A stretch of DNA of 48,630 nucleotides, taken from the NCBI RefSeq assembly GCF_000153105.1, contig NZ_CH672376.1, forward strand, positions 4,068,585-4,117,214, written 5' to 3'. Every line of letters starts with the position of its first letter. Positions within the stretch are counted from its first letter, which is position 1. The translations under genes were made by a program, and so were the position numbers. A model generated the notes under the pieces. The model saw nothing but the letters and a program-made list of their open reading frames with translations. It made no database searches and was not told the DNA's origin. The DNA is from Blastopirellula marina DSM 3645 (GTDB lineage: Bacteria; Planctomycetota; Planctomycetia; Pirellulales; Pirellulaceae). Shown one piece after another: positions 4,634-41,055 of this stretch.

Positions 4634-4945
4634 ATGAGACGAATCAATCGCCGATCGCCTTTGCCAATCGCTCCTTTTCTATTCATGATGTTTGCGATGA
4701 TTGTCGGGACGATCTCGCCTCCGCGATCGCTGGCCGAGCAAGAGACGGAGACTTCGCGAGAAGTTGAAGTCGTACTGCTGGGCCAAATCGTGTCGGTCGA
4801 ATTTCGACCCAAGATCACCGCGGACGATCGATCTGCCGATTTTCTGTCGGCTCCGCTCCCTGGACGTATCTCTCGGGCTGCATTTAGCGGCATCCGAGGC
4901 GAACGAAGCGCTTGGAACGGGATTGGCGCGGCGCTGCGCATTTAA
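4634..4945 (+). CDS. Small secreted protein of unknown function
   Basis: 103 residues from an ATG with a good ribosome site (AAGGGAG, 6 nt upstream). Residues 1-36 look like a signal peptide with a basic start (M-R-R-I-N-R-R) and a hydrophobic core ending near S-L-A. The mature part begins acidic (E-Q-E-T-E-T), followed by V-E-V-V-L-L-G-Q-I-V-S-V-E-F, which looks like a beta-strand pair. The last 30 residues are basic, serine/arginine-rich and low in secondary-structure character, so a frameshift near position 4850 that disrupts the true end is possible. No family recognised. It lies between the cysteine-rich gene and the carbonic anhydrase. Confidence 0.5.
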   Translation: MRRINRRSPLPIAPFLFMMFAMIVGTISPPRSLAEQETETSREVEVVLLGQIVSVEFRPKITADDRSADFLSAPLPGRISRAAFSGIRGERSAWNGIGAALRI

Positions 4946-5147
4946 ACCTGCGTATTTCTTGGCCTCTTCTTGGCCCTGCGTTCATGCGTTGAGTTGAACG
5001 CTCCTACATCGTGACTCCGGCATCTGCTGCGCACTCACCATTTCTCTGACGTTATCGCGGAGATGGTTGCGCGTCGCTGCTGGAATCTTCCAGATCTACG
5101 TAACGCTAGTTGGGCGCGTGTCGATGCGCCGAGTGAATATTCGAACC

Positions 5148-5804
5148 ATGCAGAAACTAATCAGCGGACTCAGTCAATTTCAGAAATCGGACTATCAGCA
5201 CAAGCAGTCTTTGTTTGCGGAGCTTGCCCATGGGCAGTCGCCGCACACGCTGTTTATCACTTGTTCGGACTCGCGTATCGACCCGAACCTGATCACGAGA
5301 AGCGATCCCGGCGATATCTTCGTGTTACGAAACGCGGGAAATCTGATTCCGCGGAAAGGTCAAGCGAGCGGGGAAGCGGCGACGATCGAATATGCGATCA
5401 AGGCCCTCAAGGTTCAGGACATCGTCGTCTGCGGACACTCTGGATGCGGCGCAATGAACGCCGTTCTTCAAGCCGGGTCGTGTGACGAACTTCCCGCTGT
5501 CGCCGCGTGGCTGCAAAACACGGATGGCTTGACGCAGCGAACATTGCAACGCAACGGGGAGCAGTCGCCTGAGCGGATGTTGGAACTGGTCATCCAAGAG
5601 AATGTCCGAATGCAGTTGGAAAACCTGGAAGCGATGCGCTGCGTCGCTGACGCATTGTCGAGCGACCAGGTCCAGTTGCATGGTTGGGCGTATGACATTG
5701 GATCTGGCAATGTGGAAATGCTTGACCGAGAGCAAGACGCGTTTGTGCCGCTAAGCGAAGCGACGTTTGGCGAGATCGACGGTTCGACATCGGGTTACGC
5801 CTAA
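5148..5804 (+). CDS. Beta-class carbonic anhydrase
   Basis: 218 residues from the ATG at 5148 (M-Q-K-L-I-S-G-L), the usual N-terminus; in-frame ATG codons upstream (5124) would add unrelated residues. It interconverts CO2 and bicarbonate. The zinc ligands are C39 (in C-S-D-S-R) and H97/C100 (in H-S-G-C-G-A), with the D41-R43 dyad intact. G-D-I-F-V-L-R-N-A-G-N and A-T-I-E-Y-A are also family motifs. There is no signal peptide, so it is cytoplasmic. It leads a set of four co-directional genes; the SulP gene starts 57 bp after its stop. This pairing occurs widely in bacteria, and some SulP proteins are even fused to carbonic anhydrase. Confidence 0.95.
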   Translation: MQKLISGLSQFQKSDYQHKQSLFAELAHGQSPHTLFITCSDSRIDPNLITRSDPGDIFVLRNAGNLIPRKGQASGEAATIEYAIKALKVQDIVVCGHSGCGAMNAVLQAGSCDELPAVAAWLQNTDGLTQRTLQRNGEQSPERMLELVIQENVRMQLENLEAMRCVADALSSDQVQLHGWAYDIGSGNVEMLDREQDAFVPLSEATFGEIDGSTSGYA

Positions 5805-12194: not shown

Positions 12195-12413
12195 AGATCT
12201 GTGCGCAGGATCAACGTGGGTGGGCAAAACAGTATTCTACCGGCCAATGTGCGAATCGTCGATTGACGTCGGGCTGCAGCGTCTAAGGTCGTGCTCGGAG
12301 CGGAAACGGACTTGAGAAATGTCTCATGTCGAAGGACGAATGAAAGATCCGAGCAGCATCGATCTCCGGTTCTTCTTTAGACATTCGTACTTAGAAATTA
12401 GTCATTCATGGTC

Positions 12414-12670
12414 GGTTGGACCGGACCGCCGCGTTTTCCCGTTCGAAAGGTTGGACTGGACCGGACCGCCGTGTTTTCTCGTGCGAAAGGTTGGACTGGA
12501 CTGGACCGCCGCGTTTTCTCGTTCGAAAGGTTGGACTGGACTGGACCGCCGCGTTTTCTCGTTCGAAAGGTTGGACTGGACCGGACCGCCGTGTTTTCTC
12601 GTTCGAAAGGTTGGACTGGACCGAACCGCCGTATTTTCTCGTTCGAAAGGTTGGACTGGACCGGACCGCT
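12414..12670 (+). repeat. 40-bp tandem direct-repeat array, six full units plus a partial
   Basis: The period is exactly 40 bp, with copies starting GGTTGGA at 12414, 12454, 12494, 12534, 12574, 12614 and 12654. Each unit reads GGTTGGACYGGACCGCCG, then a variable base pair, TTTTCTCG and a TTCGAA-centred segment. Units differ from one another at a few positions only (C/T at the second GGAC, GCG/GTG/GTA, one TGCGAA for TTCGAA), so they are old enough to have drifted. There are no spacers, so this is not a CRISPR. Forty is not a multiple of three, so no in-frame protein repeat is maintained. Confidence 0.95.
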
Positions 12671-12876
12671 TTGGTTTTTCTGGGTGGGCCTGCGGACGGG
12701 AAGTCGAATCGGCGACGAATGTCTGCTCCCCCAATCCCTCTCTCCGAGGTCTCGTGTGGGCCGCCCAATCATGATCTTTGGATTCGGAATGAAAGCAGCG
12801 CATAAAACCCCCTGGCTCGTTAACCGATTTGGCCTACGCGCAAACGGGAATTGATGGCTAATTCTCCGCTTGTAAT

Positions 12877-12917
12877 CGACCCCAAGTCCGTACGCTATGT
12901 CAAGCGACAAAAATTGG
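12877..12917 (+). repeat. Conserved intergenic block, copy 1
   Basis: A block reading CGACCCCAAGT, then a divergent CCGTACGCT, TGTC-A-AG-GACAA and ending TTGG, about 207 bp after the tandem array. It aligns to 34959-34998 with most positions shared, with a few gaps. On the minus strand it can be read as an L-S-L-D/M-S-L-D peptide, which may be chance. Confidence 0.6.
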
Positions 12918-12948
12918 TGATCCTAGGAGAGCCGTCGATCGGGTCAAT

Positions 12949-15951: not shown

Positions 15952-17355
15952 CTAGCAGCCGCAAGTCGGCACGGTGATCGTCTTGGGAACCATCTTGCAG
16001 ACGGGAACCTTGACTTCTTTGGTCACTTCGACCGGAACCATGCAGGTGTACGAAACGACCTTTTCTTCCGGGACGTTCTTGTAGGTGGTCACGTCGTAGG
16101 TCTTTTCACGCGTTTCGGCGCGGCAAACCGTGTACGGGACTTCTTTCGTCAGCACTTGGTTTTCGTACGTGCAGGTCGGAACCGTGTAGGTTTTTTCAAC
16201 CGGATTCATCACGCAAACCTTGTAGCTGTAAGGAACTTGCTCGGTGACCGGCTTCATCACGGTGCAGGTAACGTCCTTCGAGACAACTTCGGTTTCGTAG
16301 GTGCAGGTCGCAACTTGATACGTTTTTTCGACCGGTTTCATGACGCAAACCTTGTAGCTGTACGGAACTTCTTCCGTCACTTTTCGCATCACGGTGCAGG
16401 TCACGTCCTTCGAGACTTCTTGGGTCTCGTAGGTGCAGGTCGCAACTTCGTAGGTTTTTTCGACCGGCTTCATCACGCAAACTTGGTAGCTGTACGGGAC
16501 TTCTTCTGTCACGGGACGCATCACGGTGCAGGGAACTTCCGTTTGCACGATGTTCGGCGCCCAAGTCTTACAGACTTTCGAGCAGCCGCAGCAATCGGTC
16601 ACGACTTTCTCTTCCCAGCTTCCTTCGTCCTTGCAAACGGTCTTGGTGATCGTTTCCGGCATCATCCGGCAGACGGTGCGAGTTCCCTCACGCGGTTCGT
16701 ACGACGGGACCATCACGGTTTTGGTGACGGTTTTGGTGCCGTGAACCGGCTTGCAAACGTTGTACGTGACCGTTTTGGTGGAAGTTTCGGGCACCATTTT
16801 GCAGACGGTGTTGGTCCCTTCGCGGGTTTCGTACGACGGAACCATCACGGTTTTGGTGACGGTTTTTGTGCCGTGAACCGGCTTGCAAACGTTGTAGGTG
16901 ACCGTTTTGGTGGAAGTTTCGGGCACCATTTTGCAGACGTCGCGAACTCCTTCGCGAGTCTCGTAGGAGGGAACCATCACGGTCTTGGTGACGGTCTGGG
17001 TGCCGTAAACGGGTTTGCGAACGATGTACTCGACGGTCTTCGTCAAGGTTTCCGGGACCATCACCGTATACGTCCGCGTCACGGAATTCGTTTCCGGGAT
17101 GCAGCGATAAACGGTGACAGTCTTTTGGCGCACTTCCGGCCGCATTTCGGTGCAGGTGATCGTACGAGTTTCGTACGTGTGTTCGGGGACCATGATGGTC
17201 TTTTCAACATACTGCACAGCAGGCGCGCAAGGAGCGTCACAAGCGGTTGAGCAGACTGGCGCACAGCCCGGTCGGCAGCGACGGCACGCTTCGGCCACGT
17301 CGACCGTGCTGAACACGGTGACCGCCGAAGCAAGTAATAGCAAGCTGCGAATCAT
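15952..17355 (-). CDS. YTV-type repetitive cysteine-rich cell-wall protein
   Basis: 467 residues with a signal peptide (M-I-R-S-L-L-L-L, cut before A-C-R-R-C). The body consists of beta-rich repeats: three near-identical units of about 44 residues containing V-C-K-P-V-H-G-T-K-T-V-T-K-T-V-M-V-P-S-Y-E, and then four units of about 43 residues with T-V-M-R-P-V-T-E-E-V-P-Y-S-Y and V-C-V-M-K-P-V-E-K-T-Y. Alternating T, V, Y and K with regularly spaced C match the YTV domain reported for cell-wall proteins of Rhodopirellula baltica; the match is from memory. Planctomycete protein walls are thought to be disulfide-linked. The repeat makes the DNA internally repetitive and prone to recombination. Confidence 0.82.
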   Translation of the reverse strand: MIRSLLLLASAVTVFSTVDVAEACRRCRPGCAPVCSTACDAPCAPAVQYVEKTIMVPEHTYETRTITCTEMRPEVRQKTVTVYRCIPETNSVTRTYTVMVPETLTKTVEYIVRKPVYGTQTVTKTVMVPSYETREGVRDVCKMVPETSTKTVTYNVCKPVHGTKTVTKTVMVPSYETREGTNTVCKMVPETSTKTVTYNVCKPVHGTKTVTKTVMVPSYEPREGTRTVCRMMPETITKTVCKDEGSWEEKVVTDCCGCSKVCKTWAPNIVQTEVPCTVMRPVTEEVPYSYQVCVMKPVEKTYEVATCTYETQEVSKDVTCTVMRKVTEEVPYSYKVCVMKPVEKTYQVATCTYETEVVSKDVTCTVMKPVTEQVPYSYKVCVMNPVEKTYTVPTCTYENQVLTKEVPYTVCRAETREKTYDVTTYKNVPEEKVVSYTCMVPVEVTKEVKVPVCKMVPKTITVPTCGC

Positions 17356-26409: not shown

Positions 26410-27399
26410 TTAAAACTCACCGAGCACCGCGCCGTCATTGCGAGCGTGCAGATTTCGCCAGGTCGAGAGATCGACGGTTTCGCTCACCACGCGAACGCTG
26501 CCGTCCGCAAAGCTGACCATCACGCCGCCGGGGTGAGCGCTGCGAGCGCCCATCACGGCATCGCCGTGATACAAGATGTCTGGCGAGGGTGAATTGGGGG
26601 GGAAATACCCGTTGATGAACGATTGATAGGTCAGATTGCGGAGCCATTGACCGGCGCGACGTCCGTCGTAGCTGGTGACCGATCTGGCGTCGAGATCGTC
26701 CGCCGCTGTCGAGCAAGGACTGCCGCCGCCGCTGGTCGAGCGCATTTGCGTTTGTGCGTCCAAAAGCTCAGTCGAGTTGAGCCGTGCGCCGAACAAAGTC
26801 TCAGCCAGCAAGATCGTATGCGTGGCGCCATCGGTAATATCTTGAAATCGCGTCGCCGATCCGCGCCAAAAGATTCCGCCGGTATCGCTGGTGCTGCAAT
26901 ATTGGACGCCGACTCCCGGCCCGGCGTTGACCATATAGTTGCCGCCGGCCCAGGTAATATCGTCATCTACATACAACGGATCGCCGGGGTCGCTGGGACA
27001 GATCAGGACGTTGATCTTCATGCCGACCAGGTTGTCATAGATCGGGTTGAGCGTCTTCAGGTAGCTAACGCCGATCATCAACGGCTGCGAAAAATCGAGC
27101 TGATCCTGGAGATTCCCTTGTTCGAGAAACGGCAACATCTTCGACTGGGCCGAATAGCCGTAGCTCGAGTCTTCGGCCGGATACGGAAAGGTCTTGTAGG
27201 TCGACTCGTAGTTGTGCGCCGCCAGCGCTAGCTGCTTCAGGTTGTTGCTGCACTGCATCCGCCGAGAAGCTTCACGCGCTTGTTGAACCGCCGGCAGCAG
27301 CAGCCCGATCAGGATGCCGATGATCGCGATCACCACCAAGAGTTCGACCAAAGTAAACGCGGCGCGGCGTGATACGGGAGCAAAAATATCGGTCTTCAT
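26410..27399 (-). CDS. DUF1559 pseudopilin-like secreted protein
   Basis: 329 residues from ATG 27399 with a GGAGAAG site about 7 nt before. The N-terminus is a type IV-pilin-like leader, [18 protein letters not shown], followed by [19 protein letters not shown], the DUF1559 hallmark; the residue before F is A rather than G. The end has H-P-G-G-V-M-V-S-F-A-D-G-S-V. Planctomycetes encode dozens of these, roles unknown; they may be exported through a type II-like system or form surface fibres. It is the first gene of the four-gene minus operon and may recruit its partners outside the membrane. Confidence 0.93.
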   Translation of the reverse strand: MKTDIFAPVSRRAAFTLVELLVVIAIIGILIGLLLPAVQQAREASRRMQCSNNLKQLALAAHNYESTYKTFPYPAEDSSYGYSAQSKMLPFLEQGNLQDQLDFSQPLMIGVSYLKTLNPIYDNLVGMKINVLICPSDPGDPLYVDDDITWAGGNYMVNAGPGVGVQYCSTSDTGGIFWRGSATRFQDITDGATHTILLAETLFGARLNSTELLDAQTQMRSTSGGGSPCSTAADDLDARSVTSYDGRRAGQWLRNLTYQSFINGYFPPNSPSPDILYHGDAVMGARSAHPGGVMVSFADGSVRVVSETVDLSTWRNLHARNDGAVLGEF

Positions 27400-27725
27400 C
27401 GACGCTTCTCCAGAGGTTTTTTTGAGCAAGTCTCTCTCAGTCTATAATGAATGCACCTGCAGTCAATATGCAAGTGCAAGAAAGGGTTGAAACGGTGGTG
27501 GGGAGACTCGGAGGACGTTTCAGGCTCACTTTCGTAGAGCGCGACTTCCAAACAAACTCGCGCGGTGGACTGCGAGGAGCGAGAGCGGATCAAGAAGGTT
27601 TCGTCAGCAAAGAGAAAACTCGCCGCTGCATGGCTTTGCAGCGCCGGTAAAATGCCTAACATGGCGTTTAGTGTAGAAATCCGACAAAGCCGGCGATTTG
27701 CCCAAAGCAGCGAGCAACCTTGGCG
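27400..27725. other. Divergent intergenic region, no gene seen
   Basis: 326 bp between the DUF1559 gene (minus) and treZ (plus). TATAAT occurs at 27443-27448 on the plus strand, and on the minus strand TTGCAT and CATTAT are about 18 bp apart, a weak candidate for the four-gene operon. Neither is convincing. Confidence 0.35.
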
Positions 27726-33554: not shown

Positions 33555-34592
33555 ATGGCCGAAGAAGATCGAAAAGTTCGACTCGTAGATATCGCGAACC
33601 AGGCAGGCGTTTCCCGCGCAGCGGTCGGTCATATTCTGAACAACTCCGGCGTCGATAGCGTCCGCGTTTCGGAGGCGACGCGACAAAAAGTGTTGAAGAT
33701 CGCCGAAGAGCTCGATTATCGGCCGAATCGCGCCGCTCAGCGCTTGCGCGGAATGCCGACCAAGATCATCGGCGTCGTCCTGGACACCGTGAACTTGGCG
33801 GTCTTCTCGGCGCGTCTGTCGGCGATTGAGGCCGAGGCTCATACCCGCGGGTATCGTTTGATGATCGGCCAGGCGCATCATGATCCGGCCGAAATCAAAA
33901 CCTATCTCGACGATTTCGCCGATCACGGCATGGACGCGATCTTGTGCATGTTTGACGTGATGCAAGATATTCGGCCAAAGCTGAAAAAAGTCTTCCGTGA
34001 TCGCAATCACATCATCTTGCACTCGTCGCCGATTTTGAAAGCACAGCCTTGCGTGCGGGTCGAAACGTCGTCGGCGATTGAGCAATTGGTCGACCACCTG
34101 GCCGATCGCGGCCGCAAACGGGTCGCGATTCAGTTGTGGTCGCCGTCGGATCAATTGATGTCGATTCGCTGTGAAGCTTGGAAAGCGAACGTGAAACGGC
34201 GCAAGCTGGGGACCAGCGAATCGCTGATTTGGACCAATCCCGAAGCGACGCAAAAGCCGTCTCGCGATGCGATCGATGATTGCATTCAGAAGTTGGTCGT
34301 CAAAAACAAAGCCGATGCGATCATTGCGTCGAACGACGAATGGGCGGTGCGGATCATGCAAGGGTTACACCGCCATGGGTATTCGGTTCCAGAAGACTTG
34401 GCCATTACCGGCTATGACAATCTGGATATCGCCGACGTGATCGAACCCGGTCTGACCACGATCGATCAATGCCACGCGGCCTACGCCAAAGCGGCGCTCG
34501 ACCTGGTCGAAGAGTCGCTGCAGGGAGAAATCCCCGCGGCCAAGCGAGTCCGCGTGATTCGCCCGGAGCTAATCGTGCGCGAATCGACCTAA
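33555..34592 (+). CDS. LacI-family transcription regulator
   Basis: 345 residues from ATG 33555 (M-A-E-E-D-R-K). The helix-turn-helix spans residues 10-35: [21 protein letters not shown], with R-A-A-Q-R-L-R-G as hinge helix. A periplasmic-binding-protein-like effector domain follows, including [11 protein letters not shown] and [11 protein letters not shown]. The serine at G-V-S-R and the A-V-G-H stretch place it among sugar-responsive repressors. It starts 161 bp after a Gfo/Idh/MocA gene on the same strand and likely controls that gene pair or the hydrolase. No palindromic operator was found by eye near 30900. Confidence 0.93.
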
Positions 34593-34593
34593 C

Positions 34594-34640
34594 GACTGGA
34601 CCGGACAAGGTTGGACCGGACCGCTGCATTTTTCTGTTCG
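34594..34640 (+). repeat. Dispersed copy of the GGTTGGACYGGACCG core
   Basis: It reads GACTGGACCGGACAAGG then GGTTGGACCGGACCGCTG, a short A/T run with five T's, and CTGTTCG. It matches a unit of the array at 12414-12670 but lacks one 5-bp GGACY step. Confidence 0.75.
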
Positions 34641-34659
34641 GCGGATTGAACCAATAAAA

Positions 34660-34690
34660 CACTAGCCCGAGTGCGCAAGCCGAGGGAATA
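34660..34690. repeat. CTAGCCCG-type intergenic repeat
   Basis: ACTAGCCCGAGTGCGCAAGC followed by CGAGGGAAT. It resembles an intergenic repeat I recall as common in Pirellulaceae genomes, and its first eight bases match the palindrome at 43051-43078. Confidence 0.45.
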
Positions 34691-34707
34691 CGCCATCCAT
34701 TCCAAAG

Positions 34708-34747
34708 GACTGGACAAGGTTGGACTGGACCGCTGTTTTTTTTTTGC
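34708..34747 (+). repeat. Dispersed copy of the GGTTGGACYGGACCG core
   Basis: GGACTGGACAAGGTTGGACT followed by GGACCGCTG and a run of ten T's. It is the second of three copies after the LacI gene, with a preceding GGACTGGACAAGG that also occurs in the first copy. Confidence 0.75.
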
Positions 34748-34828
34748 CATCAAATTGCCTAGTCTGCCTGGGCGTTGGTTTGGGGGCTTTTGCGCTGCGG
34801 CTGGCACGGCCTGCCCTACGGGTTCACT

Positions 34829-34857
34829 AGTTGGACCGGACCGTTGGTCATTTTTTA
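34829..34857 (+). repeat. Dispersed copy of the GGTTGGACYGGACCG core (short)
   Basis: AGTTGGACCGGACCGTTGG then TCATTTTTT. It keeps the core and T-run but lacks the leading GGACTGGACAAGG. Confidence 0.65.
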
Positions 34858-34958
34858 GGACAGGTCTCAATGCAGGTCCTGTCTTGGGGGGAAGGATCGC
34901 CAGCCATCCCTGCTCGCGCTGGCCATCCTTGACCGCCGGAGGCTCGTCACCCCGTATT

Positions 34959-34998
34959 CGAGCCCCAAGTTGTGCGCTTTGTCGAGAGACAATTTTGG
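34959..34998 (+). repeat. Conserved intergenic block, copy 2
   Basis: CGAGCCCCAAGT, TGTGCGCTTTGTCGAGAGAC and then AATTTTGG. It aligns to 12877-12917. As there, it lies downstream (plus strand) of the core repeats, about 100 bp after the last copy. Confidence 0.6.
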
Positions 34999-35179
34999 CG
35001 CGTTTCCTGCGATGTCCAAGTCGACCAACCGCCCGCTTTTATGCGCTCGACGAAGCAATTTATGAAAGTGTATCCTAATGACTTGAAAGGTCGGAAATCG
35101 CCGTTAAGTCAAAGGGATTAACAAGAAGTTTTAGAGCACCCAAGGAACTTCAAGAGCTAAGGCCGCCGAGGAAATATTT

Positions 35180-35287
35180 GTGAAGACTCGGTTGCTACGC
35201 CCTGTTTATATCGATGGGCCGGCACAGCAGCTGCTTCAGGCTGAGATTGGTCGGCCTCGTGTGGGAGGAATGACTGTTGGATATTGA
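35180..35287 (+). CDS. Small overlapping ORF before the AT-rich orphan gene
   Basis: A GTG-started frame of 35 residues (V-K-T-R-L-L-R-P-V-Y-I-D) with GAGG about 8 nt upstream. It ends inside the next gene's first codons. It could be a leader peptide that couples translation, or the true N-terminus of the next gene separated by a frameshift near 35280. Evidence is limited to the ribosome site and overlap. Confidence 0.35.
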   Translation: MKTRLLRPVYIDGPAQQLLQAEIGRPRVGGMTVGY

Positions 35288-35813
35288 TCACGACGTCTAC
35301 TATTTTATTTTGGACGCCGAAAACCGCGACTCGGCTCATTGCGTTTTCAACGGCATCGATTTTCACGGTGGACTTGATAACGAGGTGTCGCAGCGCGTTT
35401 CCGCTGCGAAATACTTAGTGAGTTCAAGCGGATCGCGAGCCCTCGCTGACAAACTGTCAGTAGTTCACCGCAATCGTTTCGGCAATACTTTGGTGCTCAC
35501 GGGAAACTATAATGGTGATTTGCCTTGCCTTTTGACAACAGACTTGCAAATGAAATGGGCGTATGCAGGCAAGGTGAGTATTAGGACGAGTGACCCTGAG
35601 TTTGATCTTGAGACATTTCCAACCAAAGGAATCGCCCTGTGCGGGGGAAATTGGGTTGGCGCCTTGCGGCTAGGCGAAGAAGGATTTCGCCTTGATGCAT
35701 GTGCAAGAGATGAAATTGCTTTTGCGGTCGAGGAATCTGCCTTCTGTCCGGACTGGAGCGAGGGATTGGAGAATCCAGATTCGTTGATTATTTTCGTGAA
35801 AAGTCGAGAATAA
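35277..35813 (+). CDS. AT-rich orphan protein of unknown function
   Basis: 178 residues from TTG at 35277, with GGAGG 8 nt before it; an in-frame stop lies at 35271, so no earlier start exists in this frame. It has no signal peptide. The sequence starts L-D-I-D-H-D-V-Y-Y-F-I-L-D-A and has V-L-T-G-N-Y-N-G-D near residue 80 and R-D-E-I-A-F-A-V-E-E near 145. The base composition is visibly more AT-rich than neighbours and codon choice is less G/C-ending, which suggests acquired DNA. Size and isolation resemble immunity proteins of toxin systems, but that is a guess and no toxin is nearby. A 35-residue ORF overlaps its start. Confidence 0.6.
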   Translation: MDIDHDVYYFILDAENRDSAHCVFNGIDFHGGLDNEVSQRVSAAKYLVSSSGSRALADKLSVVHRNRFGNTLVLTGNYNGDLPCLLTTDLQMKWAYAGKVSIRTSDPEFDLETFPTKGIALCGGNWVGALRLGEEGFRLDACARDEIAFAVEESAFCPDWSEGLENPDSLIIFVKSRE

Positions 35814-36070
35814 AAAGTTGAGGCATTACTAGTGCCCGCTGCTCTCAACGGCGACCGCGGTGACAAAGCCGCGCTGCTGCGGTTTGCGACGGTGTGCTGA
35901 TTCGAGCTTCACTTTTTCGCGTCCAGGCCTAAGATGTCAGACGCATGGACGCCGCGGTTGATAGAGGGCCGAAAAGCAGGGTCTTGCCCTGTTGCTCCGC
36001 TCTTAATCGGTGGCCGGGGCGTGTTCCATTTCTTCGTGTGCGGTTTGCGCTATGAAGAAAAACAAGCCGA

Positions 36071-37063
36071 CTACGGAGCGGTCGCTGGGTGGGCGCCGTT
36101 TTTGACGCCGTTGGTTTTAACGGCCAAGCGAGTCGGGGGAGGAACGGCCAGGCCCATCAGACGCCGCGGATTGACGCGAGTCAATCGGTCGATTTCGACC
36201 GAGGTCAAGCCGACGTGTTGACGCAGGTTCTCGGCCATCCGTTGCATGGTCGTCGCCGAGCCGATCAAGTGGCTGTCATCTTCGGCGCGCGGTACCCCAT
36301 CTTCGCCGACCAGCACTTCTTGATCTCCCAGCGGATACAATCCGGGGCCGCAGCCGGCGGCGGAGATCGCGTCAGAGACGATGAACGTGCGATCGATGCC
36401 GGCGATCTGCAGGTAGTTTTTCAGCGCGAAGAACGGAACATGGGCCCCATCGGCGATCAAGCCAAAGTTCAAGCGATCAGCGCGGCTGAGAGCGCGTTGA
36501 ATGATGTTGTCGTGCCGATCCATCAAACGCGGACAGCCGTTCCCCAGATGGGTAAAGAGGGAAAGGCCCGCGTCAAGACAAGCGTCCAATTGATTGATCG
36601 ACGCGTTGGTGTGACCGGCGGCGACGATAACGCCTTGCTTGACTAGGCGACGCGTGACGTCTTGATCGGGGTCTTGTTCGGGAGCCAGCGTGACGATCCG
36701 CGTCAGTCCGTCCGCCGCGTCCAGCAGCAGCGCCATTTCTTCCCACGACGCTTCTTTGGCATGTTCCACTGGATGAGCGCCGACATAGCCGACCTGCGTG
36801 CTGATGAACGGGCCTTCGATATGAAAGCCGGCGATCATCCGTTGGATCAGCGGATCGGTCGCACGTAACTCAACGAAACGCGTCAAGCGGGCCGCCATGC
36901 GAGCAATATCGTCAGTGATGATCGTGACGAGCACTCCACCGACGGCGTCACGCTCCAGCGCCGCGCAGGCGCTGAGGAGATCTGCTGCTGAGATGTCGTC
37001 TTGGTTGAAGTCGACGCCGTAGTAGCCGTTGATTTGCAGGTCGAAGAACTTGGAGTCAGGCAT
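36071..37063 (-). CDS. nagA: N-acetylglucosamine-6-phosphate deacetylase NagA (short form)
   Basis: 330 residues, shorter than the usual 380-400. It deacetylates GlcNAc-6-P to GlcN-6-P, feeding NagB. Metal-site and catalytic residues are seen in [21 protein letters not shown] and V-S-D-A-I-S-A-A-G. It begins directly at [14 protein letters not shown], the first barrel strand, and ends soon after V-N-P-R-R-L-M-G-L, so the beta-sandwich formed by the usual N- and C-terminal extensions is missing. No ATG upstream extends the match. It is 17 bp after nagB and is surely in the same transcript. Confidence 0.87.
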
Positions 37064-38561: not shown

Positions 38562-38650
38562 AGGTTGCTGCATTTGGCTGAAATACGAACGCTGTCGGCA
38601 TGCGAGTAGTAATTGATTCTCAACATTCAGGTTTTCCGAGGAGTCGATTC

Positions 38651-39592
38651 ATGAAACGATCTCGTGGTTTTACGCTAGTCGAGCTGTTAGTCGTGATTGC
38701 GATCATCGGCGTTTTGATCGCGCTATTGTTACCGGCAGTGCAGCAAGCGCGTGAAGCGGCGCGGCGGATGCAGTGCAGCAACAACATGAAGCAGTTGGGG
38801 CTGGCGCTGCACAACTATCACGACACCTACGGCCGATTCATGTCAGGCGGTTGGGATATCGATGGAATCGCCGGCTATTCGATGGGTTGGGTACCGCGTC
38901 TGTTTCCGTTTATGGAGCAAGGCGCGCGCTGGGACGCAATGGAATCGCTGAACAATAACTACGTGATCACCCGCAGTCCGTTCCGATATCATGACCAAGA
39001 TAATCCGATCTTTGGCGCGGCACCGGGCTTGTGGTGTCCTTCGTCCGCAATCGGCGACGTTGCGTCGGACCAAACGCCGACCTCATCGCTGCCGTACCAG
39101 GACATCCAAGGTTCGCTGCACTATCGCGGCTGCTCGGGTTCGATCGATGTCGACTACCAAGCTGGCTCCTCCTCAGGAAGAGAGTACAGCGCCTCCGGTG
39201 TGATGTATCCCAAAAGCCAAACGCGAATCGGCGATATCATTGACGGGACCAGCAATACGATCTTGTTGGGTGAAACGTCGAGCGCCGAAGGTTGGTCTGT
39301 CTCGAGTCCCACGATTGTTTCCGGCTTGACCGGTTTAAAACCGTGGGTGCTTGGGTTCTATCGATACAGTTCCACGTCGTGGCTGACAATCGACCATAAG
39401 ACGATTCAGTTTCCGATCAACTACCAAGGGCAGTTTGGTTACAACTTGACGCCGTACGCCAGCTATCACCCCGGCGGCGCGATGTTCGCCAAATGCGACG
39501 GCAGCGTTTCGTTTTTCGCCGAAACGATGAGCTTGGATACGTTGAAATATTATGCGACCCGCAAGAATGGCGAGGTCATCAGCGGTCAATAA
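38651..39592 (+). CDS. DUF1559 pseudopilin-like secreted protein
   Basis: 313 residues from ATG 38651 with GAGGAG 7 nt before. The leader [16 protein letters not shown] has the classical G before F for prepilin peptidase cleavage; [15 protein letters not shown] follows. The end has [15 protein letters not shown]. It is paired with the small lipoprotein at 39661, 68 bp on. The pair occurs twice in a row here, with the second DUF1559 gene closely similar (same W-V-P-R-L-F-P-F stretch and H-Y-R region). One of the 18-bp operator sites lies 90 bp upstream. Confidence 0.94.
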
Positions 39593-40125: not shown

Positions 40126-41055
40126 ATGAAGCGACAACTTGGATTTACACTCGTTGAACTGTTGGTCGTCATCGCGATCATCGGCGTTTTGATCGCTCTG
40201 CTATTGCCAGCCGTGCAGCAAGCGCGGGAAGCGGCTCGCCGGATGCAGTGCAGTAATAATTTGAAGCAACTTAGCTTGTCGTTTCACAACTATCATGACA
40301 CCTACGGCAAATTCATGCCGGGCGGTTTACATGCCAACGTCACGTATCCCTTGGGTTGGGTTCCCCGGTTGTTTCCCTTCTTTGAGCAAGGAGCTCGCTA
40401 CGATGCGATGGATGCGCTTTACTCCAGCTATATGATGAATCGCAGCCCGTACCGGAGCCATGATCAGACGAATCCGATCTTTGGACCGGTGCCTTCACTC
40501 TCGTGTCCTTCGTCACCGCTGGGCGATACGGCTTCCGATCATCCGATTACCGCCTATTTCCCCGATACACAAATTCAAGGCGCTTTGCACTATCGCGCTA
40601 ACGCTGGTTCGTTCGACGTTGATTTCCATGCGCCTGGCGATTCGTCACGCGATGGCTATGTCTCTTCCGGCGTCGTTTATCCAGAGAGCAAGGTTCGGTT
40701 TGGCGACATTATCGATGGGACAACCAATACGATCTTGTTGGGCGAGTCGTCGAGCACGAAGGGATGGACGACATCACGCGCGCAAAGCTTTGGCGGCATC
40801 AAGCCCTGGGTCTGGGGATTTTATCGCTATAACGCGACCGATTGGTTGATGATCGACCACAAGATGGTGCAATTTCCGATCAACTACTCTGGTTCGTTCA
40901 CGAATAACAACACTCCGTTCACGAGCTATCATCCCGGTGGAGCGATGTTCGCCAATTGCGATGGCAGCGTGGTTTTTCTGCCGGAGACGATCAGCCTTGA
41001 TACGTTTAAATCGCTGGCGACTCGCAAGAATGGGGAAGTGAACTCTGGGCTTTAG
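40126..41055 (+). CDS. DUF1559 pseudopilin-like secreted protein, second copy
   Basis: 309 residues. The leader [16 protein letters not shown] and [16 protein letters not shown] are the DUF1559 type. It aligns with the copy at 38651 along its whole length (F-M-x-[38 protein letters not shown]), so the two arose by tandem duplication of a DUF1559-lipoprotein pair. It starts 54 bp after the first lipoprotein. Confidence 0.94.

Follow-up and report, generated by a model that had tools for sequence, protein, structure and literature searches.

Several described systems come close to the DNA element analysed here. They comprise the AAA_25 and RepA- or DnaB-like helicase ATPases (PF13481, PF00772); MITEs and other non-autonomous elements, whose longer relative encodes a transposase; the GTAG-tagged REP palindromes (PMC3733652); and duplicated prokaryotic genes that evolve in concert (PMC6053082). 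The last of these sources reports 26 concertedly evolving genes, 22 of them in stable protein complexes, and its main text is free of the words ATPase, helicase, mobile and Planctomycet. A literature search, mostly of papers outside subscription journals, returned no description of the element itself.

The gene copies carried by the element behave as a concertedly evolving family, grouping by species despite shared chromosomal positions. The element was studied from a window of 48,630 nucleotides, the whole stretch of DNA that was analysed, in the genome of Blastopirellula marina DSM 3645 (G000; 6.66 Mb, 3 contigs), with a sister genome (G078) and two more distant genomes of the same genus (G015 and G093) for comparison. 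The window holds two copies, locus 1 and locus 2. Both lack the gene, and each belongs to a different one of two dispersed short subfamilies.

Core and block repeats in the window and beyond

The repeats at the two loci were initially noticed from the letters of the window. That sequence-only reading placed three cores at locus 2, each followed by a T-run, ahead of a block, and an array at locus 1 ahead of a matching block. Both arrangements are borne out (Table 1), and the gaps from the last core to the block, 206 and 113 bp, agree with those first estimated.

Table 1. Coordinates of the element's features in the window
Feature	Positions	Strand	Remarks
Seven cores, locus 1	12414..12668	+	Spacing mostly 40 bp
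Spacer, locus 1	12690..12874	+	Resembles spacers elsewhere
Block, locus 1	12875..12918	+	Counterpart of locus 2 block
Whole locus 1 stretch	12270..12948		Present in G000 and, shorter, in G078; 25 bp in G015, 23 bp in G093
Core 1, locus 2	34609..34623	+	Followed by T-run
Core 2, locus 2	34718..34732	+	Followed by T-run
Core 3, locus 2	34829..34843	+	One mismatch; followed by T-run
Block, locus 2	34957..35000	+	Minus strand is probable promoter end of the element
Locus 2 stretch between two conserved genes, wider than the element	34592..36071		Different content in G015, G093 and G078

The core is far more frequent than chance would have it. With up to three mismatches it occurs 17 times in the window, where 100 shuffles gave 2.7 on average and 7 at most; as the exact string TTGGACYGGACYG it occurs 158 times in G000, against 2 for a reversed-pattern control. 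TTTTT occurs in the 22 nt that follow 174 of 300 cores and in the 22 nt preceding 70 of 300. Places resembling a 181-base query around the block number 51 in G000 (E<=10; the query is included, and the weakest are probably chance).

The search for further copies, which the sequence-only reading had proposed as a check, thus found them, with the order kept. In the collected stretches, which were picked for cores, blocks or (some) the gene regardless of order, G000 has 47 blocks, 27 of them with a core within 600 bp, and G078 has 33, 17 of them with such a core. In all 44 cases the core comes first and on the same strand. The other 36 blocks have no core within 600 bp; several of them precede an ATPase gene or sit in tandem with palindromes. 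Because the order is the same in 44/44 blocks, and because the units are homogenised from near the block to near the core (see below), the proposal of a composite element, as opposed to chance repeats, is strongly supported.

Among 246 genomes of the order, the strict block pattern was found only in G000 (17) and G078 (10), and the strict core pattern 93 times in G000, 42 times in G078 and once each in 6 others. Neither exact string was found in G015 or G093; G015 has one block-like match. Among the genomes sampled, the exact motifs are restricted to this genus. The period of the core arrays differs from place to place (13, 15, 18, about 40 and about 110 bp). The three shortest periods are those of loci L198, L112, L131 and L135, and at L198 the short-period repeat continues through the 3' end of an ATPase frame.

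The two subfamilies are recognised by their spacers. The spacer of locus 1 matches, in whole or in part, those of eight other loci (seven sites), besides its G078 counterpart; that of locus 2 matches eight other loci examined (seven sites). The short forms have therefore dispersed as such. A degraded gene as their visible source was rejected: neither the window nor 33 gene-less loci gave an ATPase remnant at E<=0.05, and two weak matches in locus 1 that appear at E<=5 (E 0.68 and 1.4) were taken as chance. The possibility that the block is an ordinary degraded protein gene, raised with the original observation, survives in an unexpected way, in that the block lies ahead of the genes of a real family; in these gene-less loci no gene remnant accompanies it at that threshold.

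Some further open reading frames were noted. At L116, a 317-aa ORF (4848-5801; G000:C2 about 3180847-3181800) lies between two blocks of a block-palindrome tandem and is presumably an IS110-type transposase, judging from its N-terminus; L117 and L118 share about 200 bp, 99% identical, with its neighbourhood. At L113, a 390-aa ORF (1371-2543), which we take to be an ISAs1-type transposase, flanks a short element on its block side, within about 3 kb of sequence missing from G078. The window itself holds three pilin-like ORFs (26410-27429, 38600-39592 and 40126-41055), presumably of the 1559 type, two of them each followed by a similar small ORF, and a minus-strand ORF of 467 aa (15952-17355) built of 132-base repeats that are rich in YETxxVxK-type motifs.

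The full form and its ATPase gene

Comparison of loci revealed a repeat, about 1.4 kb long and extending up to the block, which proved to be a gene of some 515 codons. Read on the opposite strand, the full form consists of the block, a DnaB/RepA-like ATPase gene and, where the gene ends, an A-run plus CGGTCCRGTCC core; a further core follows a few hundred bases beyond. The gene points away from the block and toward the cores. Near the C-terminus of the ATPase, several copies have the peptide EKxEAVRSxP, or a variant of it, encoded by the A-run and core.

Three full copies were scanned with Pfam. All three matched AAA_25 (65.3, 65.9 and 62.3 bits; cut-off 27), a match of the gene of the full form and not of the window loci; one also matched the DnaB N-terminal domain, and none contained a transposase domain. 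Matches of the ATPase to phage primase and helicase families were weak, and the one copy searched had no sequence relative in the PDB. Gene matches number 13 in G000, 19 in G015 (several of them split hits), 11 in G078 and 16 in G093. Of 80 genomes sampled from the family, 11 match at 1e-15, the best outside the genus reaching 2e-46; judging from sequence, the homologs in other genera are presumably primase-ATPase fusions or adjoin recombinase-like genes. Values of dN/dS were 0.10-0.21 in nine within-species pairs and 0.27-0.38 in cross-species pairs at shared slots.

The position of the block bears on its function. In the seven gene-bearing copies checked, it ends about 80-140 bp 5' of the start codon. 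Its counterpart in G015 is TTGCAA-N17-TATACT in 6 of the 8 copies displayed (one other has a different -10, and one is cut off), and in G093 it is TTGCAA-N17-TACACT in 6/6; the A-run plus core lies downstream in all 14 of these copies. Since a canonical promoter stands in its place in the two more distant species, the block is probably the promoter of the gene. In G000 and G078 the block reads TTGACR-N18-TCGACT, with a poor -10, and promoter function is therefore something that we infer for these two genomes.

Two other readings of the block were rejected. The minus-strand L-S-L-D-x-A peptide had been suggested at the outset, and its frame does exist in both window blocks; conservation shows no codon pattern, third positions keeping the commonest base in a mean of 66 of 77 blocks and other positions in 69 of 77, and the block lies outside the gene in the seven copies checked. 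The other was a structured RNA. At the 5 pairs formed by the short TTGTC/GACAA arms, no compensatory double change was seen in 77 distinct blocks, mismatches disrupt the two outer pairs in 18 and 22 of them, and the window has no Rfam match at gathering score. In the same 77 blocks, GTC and ACAA scarcely vary. CRISPR arrays and integron attC sites were tentatively set aside on their anatomy, and the window contains no tRNA.

Shared slots and species-wise grouping of gene copies

In G078, locus 1 sits at the corresponding position and its array has fewer units. Alone among the window sites, it can be compared with clearly empty sites, the 25 and 23 bp of G015 and G093 (Table 1). Set against these empty sites, no target-site duplication is evident, the ends of the element being known approximately. 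Locus 2 lies within a stretch of 1.48 kb, in place of which G015 has about 125 bp and G093 172 bp; in G078 the site is filled by 4 kb of other sequence, with neither core nor block. Two related ORFs of 518 and 527 aa occupy that G078 site (L150:1954-5108), where the first 9 bases after the stop of a LacI-type gene are the same as in G000. Just past the locus 2 block, in the stretch missing from the three relatives, is a 178-aa ORF (35277-35813) with no Pfam or NCBIfam match.

Beyond the window, too, the sister genomes share slots. In 15 of 15 G000/G078 site pairs, picked because the sequence of both sides was available, cores are present on both sides and array lengths or contents differ. Seven G000 sites picked regardless of G078 content (locus 1, locus 2, L120, L107, L196, L198 and L096) hold an element in G078 at 5 and none at 2; at L096, G000 has the gene and G078 about 100 bp at the same site. 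Full and gene-less forms occupy the same slot in different species at L115/L135, L188/L087 and L246/L106. Between the common flanks of L115/L135, for example, G000 has two blocks, the gene and a core, and G078 has a block, palindromes and 15 cores at 18-bp spacing, with no gene. At L198/L121, G000 has 13 kb with other genes between the common flanks. Stretch L200:1269-14429 (G000:C2 about 133.3-146.4 kb) comprises these 13 kb, with an ATPase copy and several other ORFs, where G078 has a gene-bearing element of 2.1 kb.

The more distant species share slots as well. A comparison of the flanks around 16 gene copies of G093 and 8 of G015 with the collected G000 stretches, which cover a small part of the G000 genome, placed four copies from G093 and one from G015 at G000 slots: three of these slots carry the gene in G000 (L221, L233 and L237) and two a short form (L246 and L188), the calls for L237 and L246 being based on one flank. 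Three further G093 gene copies are near a G000 element and not at it, and one slot is common to G093 (L235) and G015 (L199). Orientation agrees in 6 of 6 cross-species slot pairs involving G015 or G093, and slot and orientation both agree in seven G000/G078 gene slots.

The contents of the slots follow the species. Gene copies are 97-98% identical among L115-L118 in G000 and among L121, L126 and L137 in G078, where L212 and L215 are 100% identical and L217 98%. This within-genome identity of 97-100% compares with 63-78% (DNA) and 55-73% (protein) at the seven G000/G078 shared gene slots, whose flanks are mostly 83-94% identical. Part of the L116/L133 flank stands at 76%. At L117/L137 the gene (76%) is about as similar as its flanks (75-84%), and the contrast at that slot is therefore weak. 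Three G078 copies, mutually 98-100% identical, lie in slots that hold three different subfamilies in G000. The homogenised stretches of high identity begin near a block and stop near a core.

A tree of 37 gene copies gives the same picture, needing 6 species-label changes (the minimum being 3 and the mean after shuffling 20.5), and slot-wise groupings were rejected in 8 of 8 AU tests (p-AU <=2.2e-5). The slot groups had been named after a first tree had been seen, and one two-row group with identical rows was widened for testing. Of the copies in the first tree, 7 deeper ones from the genus and 9 from outside it are not among the 37 rows; nor are 4 other G000 copies and some other G015 copies. 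One pair, L255/L258, has 90% protein identity and a dS of 0.32 and looks like ordinary orthologs; not every copy is therefore homogenised.

Origin of the slots and their contents

We favour, at a probability of roughly 0.6, the reading that the slots are old and that their contents have been homogenised by gene conversion or by homing into existing slots, the window loci being gene-less copies. The core/block unit would be the shell of a dispersed chromosomal element, with slots that are old and mostly inherited. Copying within the genome, whether by gene conversion or by homing into existing shells, would overwrite the contents of these slots; purifying selection would keep the ATPase intact, and the core arrays would lengthen and shorten by slippage or unequal exchange. 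The short forms may have arisen by clean gene loss and later spread as short forms. The window loci would have no essential role, the block at most firing a transcript into the core array. We infer gene conversion, and the mechanism with it, from the identity pattern, no transposase having been found inside the unit. A doubtful variant goes further: the ATPase, with no transposase, would itself drive the copying of its gene into existing block/core shells, and gene-less shells would be both relics and landing sites.

Several observations count against old, overwritten slots: the weak contrast at L117/L137, the 13 kb in G000 at L198/L121, the ordinary orthologs L255/L258, the three G093 gene copies close to a G000 element without coinciding with it, the poor -10 of the G000/G078 block, the lack of gene remnants in the short forms searched, and the sites that are not shared (L096, absent from G078, and both window sites, which lack the element in G015 and G093). 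Some of these would suit an ordinary transposable element, in which full copies and MITE-like short copies are moved in trans by a putative transposase acting on the block and core ends, and shared slots are old insertions or favoured targets. The two dispersed short subfamilies with their own spacers, the lineage-specific bursts of near-identical copies, the presence of locus 1 in two species and its lack in two, and the missing L096 copy all fit such an element. The unit carries no transposase, however, and neither inverted ends nor target duplications were seen. Transposition alone also leaves unexplained why three nearly identical G078 copies lie in slots with three different G000 subfamilies, and why slot-wise groupings are rejected despite shared slots and orientation. 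On balance we regard transposition as unlikely, if worth keeping in mind.

It is a good deal less probable that the repeats are chromosomal binding sites, with the core and its T-run, or the palindromic TTGTC-N4-GACAA of the block, bound by a protein (perhaps the ATPase) for replication, segregation or autoregulation, and the arrays kept for that purpose. The core does persist while the array period changes, it is retained with its A-run at gene 3' ends in the divergent G015 and G093, and part of the block hardly varies; yet the copies differ greatly from one species to another, and two species lack the element at the window sites. A structured non-coding RNA or small peptide made from block and cores is highly improbable: the short inverted repeat and the L-S-L-D-x-A frame would invite it, and the 77 blocks, the Rfam search and the position of the block outside the gene all speak against it.

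If old slots are indeed overwritten, the element would be a dispersed bacterial gene family with inherited positions, repeatedly overwritten contents, no recognisable transposase and many gene-less shells. It would then offer a direct test case for the homogenisation of divergent dispersed copies in bacteria. It would also show that conserved pairs of intergenic repeats can be the promoter and tail of a missing gene, and not RNA.

The gene of the element matches the domains of the AAA_25 and DnaB-like ATPases; unlike these, it is repeated here 11 to 19 times per species (by match count) in four species, in a unit with neither integrase nor primase. As in MITEs, a longer gene-bearing form and short dispersed copies have conserved ends in common, but that longer form encodes an AAA_25 ATPase in place of a transposase, target duplications and terminal inverted repeats were not seen, and block and core are not inverted copies of each other on inspection, the ends being known approximately. 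The GTAG-tagged REP palindromes (PMC3733652) find a parallel in the GTAGGGTGGGTGGAGC palindromes that stand in tandem with blocks at many gene-bearing loci; block and core are not such palindromes, and the tandem is missing at the window loci. Another parallel is the concerted evolution of duplicated prokaryotic genes (PMC6053082), where within-species paralogs are likewise closer than same-site copies of other species; the present family differs from those cases in its dozen or so dispersed copies and its gene-less shells.
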